Shown piece by piece: positions 38,493 through 42,117 of a stretch of 64,000 bases of DNA. The notes under the pieces are model-generated. The model searched no databases. It was not told the origin of the DNA and saw nothing but the letters and a program-made list of their open reading frames with translations. A program made the translations under genes and the position numbers. The stretch comes from Pseudomonadota bacterium (GTDB lineage: Bacteria > Pseudomonadota > Gammaproteobacteria > Acidiferrobacterales > UBA6901), in the NCBI GenBank assembly GCA_027364845.1, contig DAHXOO010000004.1, positions 51,841-115,840 of the forward strand, given 5' to 3'. The first letter of the stretch is position 1. Each line of letters begins with the position of its first letter.

Positions 38493-38943
38493 GACGTTTT
38501 TGACGCAGACGGGTTGAACCGCGCCGCATGTTGGACCTCTTCACCCCCCCCCCTGAACGTAGGCTGACGTGAGCGGGCGCATGCCGTGCCGGGTAGGCAT
38601 GCGGAACTGTACGTTGCCTGAGGTTTCAGGTCGTTAGGCACGAATCGGGGTTGTCGTACTCGCCGCACGTGACGTGCATATTTTCGTCGTATCACCTTGA
38701 TAGGGTATGCAAAACTAACACGTCGGCTGCAGCCGAGGTGAGCCTGAAATTCTCCTGCACCATCAAGGGCCGGATATCGAAAACGTTAGTCTGCACACGG
38801 AACGGACAGCAACCCTTCTCCGTACGTAGCGTACAGATTTCGGGTTGCCGTACTATTTTTTTTAGCGCCGCGAATCCAAACCGGGTTTTCATGCCTCTTA
38901 ATTGGTGTGGAATATCCTCGATAACGTGCGAAAGGAGCATGAA
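38493..38943. other. Gap with first 166-bp repeat
   Basis: No gene seen. It starts with a run of nine C (about 38547) and a CCTGA/TCAGG hairpin near 38620, then the 166-bp repeat, then 130 bp leading to the DUF2892 gene, which should contain its promoter. Confidence 0.45.
38647..38812. repeat. 166-bp direct repeat, copy 1
   Basis: Copy 2 is at 41325-41490; only 3 of 166 positions differ, and similarity stops abruptly at both ends. It contains two palindromes: GCACGTGACGTGC (38665-38677) and TCGGCTGCAGCCGA (38723-38736), the second extended by CAC/GTG one base further out. No open frame of note. The two copies bracket the sigma-factor and hicBA genes. Confidence 0.95.
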
Positions 38944-39159
38944 ATGCTTTACGTTAAGAATTTACCGATGTGGGAACGGTCATTGCGTATCGGTTTGGGA
39001 ACGGCAACAGCGGCTTACGCGGTTCTGAATATTGGCGGTGTGTTGGGCTGGGCAATCGTGGCAGGCGGCGCCCACGCCGCATTGACTGGCATATTCGGTT
39101 TTTGCCCCGCCTGTGCACTGGCCGGACGCCGTTTGGAAAAGCGTACCCAGCAAGAGTAA
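38944..39159 (+). CDS. DUF2892 (YgaP-type) inner-membrane protein
   Basis: The product is 71 residues: MWERSLRIGLGTATAAYAVLN, a glycine-rich hydrophobic hairpin, GIFGFCPACALAGRR at the end. The two cysteines (CPAC) fit the DUF2892 pattern, found alone or attached to rhodanese domains. AAAGGAG precedes the ATG. It begins a unit with the sigma factor, 14 bp downstream. Confidence 0.82.
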   Translation: MLYVKNLPMWERSLRIGLGTATAAYAVLNIGGVLGWAIVAGGAHAALTGIFGFCPACALAGRRLEKRTQQE

Positions 39160-39173
39160 ATGCAGATGACTCA

Positions 39174-39689
39174 ATGAGTATCACGGAGAACCATTATCCT
39201 TTGCTGGAAGCGGCCCGGCTGGGCGATACATCCGCGCTCGATCGTTTGTTGCAAGTATGCCAACCGGATGTTCGTCGCTATGTATACCGGCATTGTTTGG
39301 CCAGCGACGTGGACGATGCTGTCCAGGAAACGTTGCTGATCATTACACGCCGGCTGCGGTCACTGCGGGCGGCGGCGTTCTCTGGTTGGCTGCTCCAGGT
39401 TGTACGGCGTGAATGCCGCCGCCTGGAGCGTCGCCTGTTCAACCTCGATCCCTACGATGAAGAAAAGATGGAGTGTTGGCTGACGACATGCTCAGATGAA
39501 ACGGTACCACTTGATCTGATCAGCGCCCTGGAATCACTGCCGGAACATTACCGTGAGATTATTCTGTTGAGGAATTTTCACGAAATGACCATTCGCGAGG
39601 TCGCGGCACAGATACGACTTACCACTTCTGCTACGAAAAGCCGATTGCGCCGGGCGCGGCAACTGATACGGGAATATTTATTGGCGTGA
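39174..39689 (+). CDS. ECF-like RNA polymerase sigma factor
   Basis: The product is 171 residues. Region 2 is seen at YRHCLASDVDDAVQETLLII and region 4 at ALESLPEHYREIILLRNFHE followed by MTIREVAAQIRLTTSATKSRLRRARQ (helix-turn-helix). There is no linked anti-sigma factor of obvious type; the next gene (39740) encodes a soluble unknown protein. The upstream 166-bp repeat and DUF2892 gene are its neighbours. Target promoters unknown. Confidence 0.87.
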   Translation: MSITENHYPLLEAARLGDTSALDRLLQVCQPDVRRYVYRHCLASDVDDAVQETLLIITRRLRSLRAAAFSGWLLQVVRRECRRLERRLFNLDPYDEEKMECWLTTCSDETVPLDLISALESLPEHYREIILLRNFHEMTIREVAAQIRLTTSATKSRLRRARQLIREYLLA

Positions 39690-39739
39690 GCCTAGGCGAA
39701 TCAATGGATATTCCCACGTCAGGTATTCAGGAGGATGCA

Positions 39740-40120
39740 ATGATGGATTGGCTGTCACGACTAACGGGCAACAGGGGATCAACCACGACAATTAAAATAG
39801 CTGGCAAGGAAATCGAGGTAATCTGTTCGGCAAGTGCTGATAAAGCGCTGGTTCAACGCGATTGCTCCCTGGCGGTAGAAATAGAACTGGCCTTTGCATG
39901 TTTTGCCCGAAAGCAGGTATTTTTTCATAACACACCAGGTGGAGATAACGTAATCGACGTGAATGAAAAACTGGCATTGCTAATTACAACAATCATTCCA
40001 GATACCTGCGAGAGGGTCGAAACCAAGACTACAACAAGAATCACATTGCGGAATTTCATACCTAAGTGGGTTCAAATCGACTATGCCAAGGGAAAATGGG
40101 TCGGCGAATATGGCTTGTAG
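39740..40120 (+). CDS. Unknown protein linked to the sigma factor
   Basis: The product is 126 residues from the ATG at 39740, chosen because CAGGAGG lies 6 nt upstream; longer frames begin inside the sigma gene. It has no signal peptide or membrane segment. Three to four cysteines (VICSASAD, VQRDCSLAV, LAFACFAR, DTCERV) could be metal- or redox-active. It follows the sigma gene by 50 bp and may be its regulator, but no family resemblance supports that. Confidence 0.6.
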   Translation: MMDWLSRLTGNRGSTTTIKIAGKEIEVICSASADKALVQRDCSLAVEIELAFACFARKQVFFHNTPGGDNVIDVNEKLALLITTIIPDTCERVETKTTTRITLRNFIPKWVQIDYAKGKWVGEYGL

Positions 40121-40276: not shown

Positions 40277-40501
40277 ATGGCTAAGAATCTGTACACAGCG
40301 ATTTTAGAACGTGAAGGCGATTTATACGTCGCCTTGTGCCCAGAGCTGGATATCGCCAGCCAGGGAAAAACCGTGGAAGAGGCCACAGCCAACCTGAAAG
40401 AGGCGGTGGAACTGTTCCTGGAAACCGCCGATCCCGCCGAAATCAAAACCCGCCTGCACGACCAGATACTGGTGACCACTTTCGAAGCGGCGCGTGGGTA
40501 A
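40277..40501 (+). CDS. hicB: HicB-type antitoxin
   Basis: The product is 74 residues: YTAILEREGDLYVALCPELD, IASQGKTVEEATANLKEAVE, a partial RNase H-like fold typical of HicB. ACAGGAGA precedes the ATG. It overlaps hicA by 8 nt, so the two are translated together. HicB neutralises HicA and represses the operon in known systems. Confidence 0.88.
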   Translation: MAKNLYTAILEREGDLYVALCPELDIASQGKTVEEATANLKEAVELFLETADPAEIKTRLHDQILVTTFEAARG

Positions 40502-40715
40502 ACTGCGCGTCCTATCGGGGCGCGAGGTCTGCCGTATCCTGGGTAAACACGGGTTTGTTGAGGTCCGCCGGCGCGGCAGCCATATCGTCATGCAACGCCA
40601 GACCGACGCTGGCACCACCACCGTTCCCGTGCCGGATCACGCTGAGCTCAAAATCGGTACATTGCTTTCCATCATCCGGCAAAGCGAACTGCTCCGCAGC
40701 GAGTTTGAGTCCTGA
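40494..40715 (+). CDS. hicA: HicA-type mRNA interferase toxin
   Basis: The product is 73 residues with the dsRBD-like HicA fold: LSGREVCRILGKHGFVEVRR and the catalytic His in GSHIVMQ, then TTVPVPDHAELKIGTLLSII. Start is GTG at 40494. The order antitoxin-toxin is the reverse of the E. coli hicAB order but common elsewhere. It is inside the segment bounded by the 166-bp repeats. Confidence 0.88.
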   Translation: MGKLRVLSGREVCRILGKHGFVEVRRRGSHIVMQRQTDAGTTTVPVPDHAELKIGTLLSIIRQSELLRSEFES

Positions 40716-41324: not shown

Positions 41325-41490
41325 GGGGTTGTCGTACTCGCCGCACGTGACGTGCATATTTTCGTCGTATCACCTTGATAAGGTATGCAAAACTAACACG
41401 TCGGCTGCAGCCGAGGTGAGCCTGAAATTTTCCTGCACCATCAAGGGCCGGATATCGAAAACGTTAGTCTGCACACGGAAAGGACAGCAA
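41325..41490. repeat. 166-bp direct repeat, copy 2
   Basis: 163 of 166 positions equal copy 1 at 38647-38812, same orientation. Palindrome TCGGCTGCAGCCGA at 41401-41414. Flanks share nothing with those of copy 1. Confidence 0.95.
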
Positions 41491-42117
41491 GCCTGAATCA
41501 AGTGTGTCGAAAGTAGGTGGGGTTGGCGCTTGTCAGCGGGTCACTGCCGCTCAGTAACGCGCCTTTCATTACCCGTGGCGTTGTACGTAATACATTGATT
41601 TAATATGACATTCTGTCATCCGGACTGCCGTTGTAGGGTGTGGGCTGGGGTGCCGCGGGCCGGCAGGTATCCGGGGTGGCAAAGTCCCGGGCCGGGAAGC
41701 CGCATGCCCTGAACCCGTCGATCTTTGCCGATCGGCGCAGACCGGGATTACTGGAAATGACTGTATGCCACGGTTTGCCGCGGCGCTTGCCACACCAGAT
41801 CCGCACGCTCGATTGTCCGTGATGTATTGCACCTTCGGGAACATCCGGTAATCGCCTGTGTGTCATGCCGGCCGCGGCAGCGAAGGTCGCTGATCGAATC
41901 TGGTTGTTCTTGGAGCATCCCAGCCTCATGGATTCACGTTGCGATACGTATGCACGAAGTCGCGGGTGTAGCGGCGGGGGTTTCCGTGTTAAAATTCCTG
42001 TTTTCCCGGAGTGCCGAACCGGGTCTCGCAGGTTGAGCTGATGCACAAGAAAAGCGACAAAACAGCGCTCTGCCTATGGGTCCTAGCTGAGTTAACGCCC
42101 CCTTAGCGGCATCGAAA

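Follow-up and report, generated by a model that had tools for sequence, protein, structure and literature searches.

Four known systems come closest to the pair of extracytoplasmic function (ECF) sigma factor and membrane protein described here. The closest worked-out analogue is EcfF-OsrA of Bradyrhizobium japonicum, in which an ECF16 sigma factor is coupled to an anti-sigma factor of the DUF1109/NrsF type (PMC3420878). Like the operon analyzed here, EcfF-OsrA combines an ECF sigma factor with a cysteine-bearing membrane partner; it is autoregulated, and among its targets are a membrane-anchored thioredoxin and a DsbD-like protein. Unlike here, a six-TM DUF1109 protein serves as the partner and its gene comes after that of the sigma factor, the key cysteines lie in the anti-sigma factor, and the promoter reads GTAAC-N14/15-CG(t,a) instead of GCGAATC-N17-CCTCTTA (PMC3420878). 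Our operon encodes no DUF1109 (NrsF) domain and its promoter is not of the GTAAC type, which places it outside the ECF16/NrsF-type systems. CorE and CorE2 of Myxococcus xanthus (ECF238) offer a second likeness, as they are metal-responsive, need their own cysteines and have no anti-sigma factor (PMC8999054). CorE, however, carries a C-terminal cysteine-rich domain and a CXC motif in its linker (PMC8999054), whereas the sigma factor studied here has its cysteines in region 2, ends right after region 4 with no C-terminal extension of the ECF238/CorE-like kind, and has a membrane partner.

The partner itself resembles Escherichia coli YgaP, which shares the two-TM domain PF11127 and likewise has a cysteine where the second TM helix ends (PMC4730233). 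YgaP differs in having a rhodanese domain and a single cysteine at that helix, and no sigma factor has been described for it (PMC4730233); here the TM domain is unfused and has a CPxC motif, Pfam returns PF11127 as the only domain of the 71-aa protein, and the rhodanese domain of the YgaP sulfurtransferase is missing. A fourth likeness is to the sigma factors of MNIO/bufferin gene clusters, for which NrsF-type anti-sigma factors are listed and DUF2892 is not mentioned (PMC12452194): bufferin-type genes adjoin some homologues of our sigma factor that lack DUF2892 (loci L075, L078 and L158/L201), and the promoter of the sigma operon also precedes DUF2282 genes. Two other candidate relatives were set apart, EcfQ (ECF33) on its differing promoter and RpoQ of Cupriavidus on its predicted membrane anti-sigma factor (RsqA).

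The literature searched, represented for YgaP and sigma factors by titles and abstracts, describes no pairing of DUF2892 with an ECF sigma factor, and neither DUF2892 nor PF11127 appeared among the matches listed in a broader literature search. The initial annotation had likewise not recognized the pairing from described ECF groups; this agrees with the literature searched, although the 2021 ECF reclassification may already have numbered this sigma group.

The DUF2892-sigma pair and its distribution

As first annotated, three same-strand genes run in tandem with short gaps, measuring 14 nt between the DUF2892 and sigma genes and 50 nt between the sigma gene and the third gene (Table 1). The first product matches the PF11127 (YgaP-like_TM) profile with 50 bits against a curated cut-off of 25.3. 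The second matches Sigma70_r4_2 (47.5 bits) and Sigma70_r2 (34.9 bits), both above the Pfam cut-off; its best PDB matches are E. coli sigma-E and other ECF sigma factors, and its 171 residues, comprising regions 2 and 4 only, fall within the ECF size of about 170-200 aa. No family exceeded the cut-off for the 126-aa third product in Pfam, none was found in NCBIfam, and the PDB held no relative. Pfam and NCBIfam gave no known anti-sigma domain in any of the three proteins, bearing out the initial annotation in that no recognizable anti-sigma factor lies beside the ECF-type sigma factor.

Table 1. Features of the operon and its 5' region, in positions of the window (the whole 64,000-nt stretch of DNA analyzed)
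Feature	Position	Strand	Remarks
T-run 5' of the -35 element (AT-rich tract; possible UP element)	38856-38863	+	An AT-rich tract recurs here in most of 82 aligned upstream regions
-35-like element GCGAATCC	38870-38877	+	Same element, equally spaced, in 81 of 82 homologous operons
-10-like element CCTCTTA	38894-38900	+	23 bp from CGAA to CCTC; conserved in homologous operons
DUF2892/YgaP-like_TM membrane protein, 71 aa	38944-39159	+	PF11127, 50 bits; 5' of sigma in three samples
CPAC motif (C54, C57; residues 54-57 of the DUF2892 protein)	39103-39114	+	End of second hydrophobic segment; CPxC invariant when sigma-linked
ECF-type sigma factor, 171 aa, regions 2 and 4 only	39174-39689	+	Pfam Sigma70_r2, Sigma70_r4_2
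Sigma C29 codon	39258-39260	+	Cys in 79/88 homologues
Sigma C41 codon	39294-39296	+	Cys in 88/88 homologues; common in other ECFs too
Sigma C81 codon	39414-39416	+	Cys in 88/88 homologues; 0/24 other ECFs
126-aa protein with conserved C54 and C90, family unannotated; likely effector	39740-40120	+	No Pfam, NCBIfam or PDB match

We surveyed the surroundings of the sigma factor in three samples. The first comprised the 80 best homologues in genome contigs (52-79% identical, mostly from Burkholderiales and metagenome-assembled Proteobacteria), and an iterated profile placed DUF2892 directly 5' of the sigma gene in 75 of them, the exceptions being L068, L075, L076, L078 and L083. Within the host order, all 10 of the 10 close homologues showed the same arrangement. 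The third sample was an even draw of 399 Proteobacteria, in which the sigma factor occurred at 15 places in 13 genomes, host included; DUF2892 precedes it at 13 of the 14 non-host loci, down to about 40% sigma identity and into another class. The association is reciprocal, as 14 of the 15 matches to the sigma-linked DUF2892 profile in these 399 Proteobacteria adjoin the sigma gene. Many of the gene pairs overlap by 4 nt, and the protein distances of the two partners are strongly correlated (Mantel r 0.80, null maximum 0.09), a correlation that shows joint inheritance, not contact. The adjacency is thus far beyond chance in all three samples, and the pairing is an old, nearly obligate and conserved two-gene module.

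The remaining variation lies in the neighbors. L083 and L158 are among the sigma factors without DUF2892, and at L068, L075 and L078 the position 5' of the sigma gene, behind the same promoter, is occupied by a DUF6789-like membrane protein instead of DUF2892. On the 3' side, other lineages carry a gene for TusA (in several of them) or for an FNR/CRP-type regulator. The distribution also bears on whether the sigma factor might be held by an unlinked or unrecognized anti-sigma factor encoded elsewhere in the genome, with DUF2892 and the 126-aa protein both being only targets. Some ECF systems are known to be controlled from an unlinked locus and the host has other membrane proteins, but the linkage to DUF2892 is tight over three proteobacterial classes, and we regard this explanation as improbable.

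Promoter and predicted regulon

A promoter of the form GCGAA[T/C]C-N17-CCTCTTA is recognizable with the same spacing in 81 of 82 homologous operons, L055 being the exception. The underlying dyad CGAA-N19-CCTC lies 5' of DUF2892 at 76 of the 82 loci; in ten mononucleotide shuffles, no dyad reached more than 5. Two alphaproteobacterial-type loci (L202 and L203) carry the promoter too, and a third (L198) has it with one change. Given how strongly the promoter is conserved and how closely it goes with the sigma factor, the sigma factor very probably reads it and, since 81 of the 82 operons carry it at fixed spacing, the operon is very probably autoregulated, such conservation being the expected mark of autoregulation and not a proof of it. 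A sigma-70 promoter scan of the region gave nothing above chance. In homologous operons (e.g., L013, L029 and L093) the first ~30 nt after the -10 element, where the transcript is expected to start, can form a stem-loop, GAGGG-N-CCTC, with a mean folding energy over 81 loci of -9.3 compared with -5.4 for shuffles; changes in the arms keep the pairing, and the structure is weak in the window.

Pattern scans of the host genome located the exact promoter at its own operon only. With an extended pattern and up to 3 mismatches, the host and eight relatives from its order gave the promoter of their own operon and almost nothing else. A wider set of predicted targets emerged from relatives, where 803 kb around 80 homologues contained 28 further sites compared with 1 for the reversed pattern. 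Six of the 28 are the promoter of the sigma operon itself (L053, L068, L075, L076, L078 and L083), leaving 22, and the number of independent sites is slightly below 22 because L075 and L078 are near-identical loci. These sites precede a gene for a SoxA/TsdA-like cytochrome c followed by thioredoxin and DsbD_TM genes, as well as genes for secreted Lys-Cys-rich peptides consisting of a signal peptide (MKTSLKLASLAALTAATLALPAAA) and KCGAKCAPKC-type repeats (L241, L243, L246, L247, L248 and L249); in several loci the peptide genes diverge from the cytochrome c-thioredoxin-DsbD genes. Peroxiredoxin-like and DUF2282-type (bufferin) genes also lie behind sites, and for a few sites the downstream gene is ambiguous. 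In a genome-wide pattern scan of 31 genomes, exact sites were found 5' of CMD/AhpD-like genes in Massilia and Duganella, and at L198 a CMD-like gene directly follows the sigma gene. Judged by gene identity, the probable common theme of the targets in relatives is the handling of thiol-disulfides, sulfur and thiophilic metals, and the sigma-DUF2892 pair appears to turn on defenses against sulfur, thiol or metal stress. The sigma cysteines, the promoter at 38870-38900 and the regulon in relatives had all been overlooked in the initial annotation.

The third gene and the genomic setting

The 126-aa protein had been proposed, alongside the CPAC membrane protein, as a possible sensor for the sigma factor. 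It shares the operon here, and in an alignment of 17 sequences its C90 is invariant and its C54 near-invariant, features that would suit a soluble sensor in the host lineage. Its distribution does not. The gene follows the sigma gene only in the host genus and in Acidiferrobacter-type close relatives, and is absent from nearly all sigma loci; the family is represented in 40 of the 57 host-order genomes, mostly away from such a sigma gene, and in 2 of the 399 genomes of the phylum draw at the threshold used. What stays constant across loci is the promoter, which does not depend on the partner, together with DUF2892. We therefore rejected the 126-aa protein as the sensor on its distribution and consider such a role very unlikely. 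The neighborhood survey of its homologues, suggested at the outset as a check, accordingly did not show it to be a conserved partner of the sigma factor; the constant neighbor, and a candidate sensor, is the CPAC protein. Consistent occurrence of sigma homologues apart from these neighbors, named beforehand as grounds for abandoning the association, was not seen for DUF2892 and is the case for the 126-aa gene at nearly all loci.

With the operon as the sole clear target in the host, the 126-aa protein is the likely output there; its gene is a lineage-specific addition, and the protein is probably an effector recruited to the operon. AlphaFold modeling with only five homologues yielded a pLDDT of 42, and the model was unusable. 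The host encodes a paralogue (L142, G000:C66:35919-36278), and at L144 the gene for another paralogue comes after those for DsrE2 and a small membrane protein, close to MsrA- and MsrB-like genes.

The DUF2892-sigma-126-aa cassette lies between mtnA and gyrA. These two genes directly adjoin in two other genomes (G005 and G012), and four genomes of the host genus have a different gene after mtnA. A HicB-like/HicA toxin-antitoxin pair (40277-40715) sits directly 3' of the operon; HicA matches PF07927 with 66 bits, and the HicB-like matches are below the cut-off. PADLOC returned no matches. A 170-nt direct repeat (38647-38816 and 41325-41494, 98% identical), present in only these two copies in the host assembly, brackets the cassette and the HicBA pair. 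The repeat and the mtnA-gyrA neighbors fit insertion of the cassette in the host lineage and are not proof of it.

Conserved cysteines and control of the sigma factor

Both members of the module carry conserved cysteines. In the sigma-linked DUF2892 proteins, an invariant CPxC closes the second hydrophobic segment, and the head KN[VLI]PxxER is present in nearly all of them. None of the unlinked DUF2892 proteins recovered from the host order has CPxC; they read CPxY, CPxW, CPxN, CPxF or CGxY at this position. The rhodanese domain of YgaP is cytosolic and its C159 ends the second TM helix (PMC4730233), so CPxC probably faces the cytoplasm. This orientation agrees with the basic residues found at either end of the DUF2892 protein in the window, and we infer an inner-membrane protein with both termini and the CPxC pair on the cytoplasmic side. 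On the sigma side, C29, C41 and C81 are near-invariant and all lie in region 2. Among 24 other ECF sigma factors used as controls, C41 was common, C29 occurred once and C81 never; distant homologues of our sigma factor keep C41 and C81, and several alphaproteobacterial-type ones have lost C29. The predicted sigma model (pLDDT 71, pTM 0.58; Foldseek TM-scores mostly 0.3-0.45) is unreliable in its domain arrangement, and we therefore drew no cysteine distances from it.

That both proteins of this two-gene module have conserved cysteines suggests switching by thiols or metals at the membrane. We give an even chance to an autoregulated ECF sigma operon in which DUF2892 holds or gates the sigma factor by thiol or metal chemistry. 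DUF2892 at the inner membrane would do so through its CPxC motif and the region-2 cysteines of the sigma factor; oxidants, reactive sulfur species or thiophilic metals would modify these cysteines and free the sigma factor, which would then amplify its own operon and activate genes for scavenging and repair. The host offers no clear target other than the operon itself, which leaves the 126-aa protein as the likely output there. Several features speak against DUF2892 as the regulator: its cytoplasmic parts are short for a classical anti-sigma domain, it is encoded before and not after the sigma gene, and a few sigma factors (L083 and L158) lack it. A variant that we hold only tentatively makes the sigma factor itself the cysteine switch, with no anti-sigma factor of the usual kind, the two-TM CPxC protein passing a thiol, sulfane-sulfur or metal signal straight to the region-2 cysteines at the face of the membrane.

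DUF2892, proposed here to regulate the sigma factor or to sense thiols for it at the membrane, could instead be an effector. As the main rival explanation, it would act as a membrane relay for thiols or sulfane sulfur that is produced along with the sigma factor, and control of the sigma factor would lie with its own cysteines and with autoregulation. The one CPxC-type DUF2892 with no sigma gene nearby (L267, G461:C2:189500-195500) adjoins two thioredoxin genes and a DsbD/CcdA-like gene, as expected for an effector; YgaP, the namesake of the family, is a sulfurtransferase; TusA follows the sigma gene in several lineages; and the sigma cysteines are retained where DUF2892 is absent. Against this, near-obligate adjacency to the sigma gene alone, and not to other targets, is more usual for a regulator, and we consider the effector role possible but rather unlikely. 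The surroundings of L267 also include genes for an ArsR-type regulator and an ArsM-like methyltransferase, both named from their sequences.

ECF sigma factors with no recognizable anti-sigma factor form an open class. For this group, a near-obligate partner, a promoter precise enough for regulons to be predicted from sequence and conserved cysteines on both partners make a specific sensing mechanism testable. If DUF2892 does hold or gate the sigma factor, one subtype of DUF2892, itself a very common membrane domain, would acquire a regulatory role, and Lys-Cys-rich secreted peptides, bufferins and thiol-disulfide relays would be tied into one predicted response.
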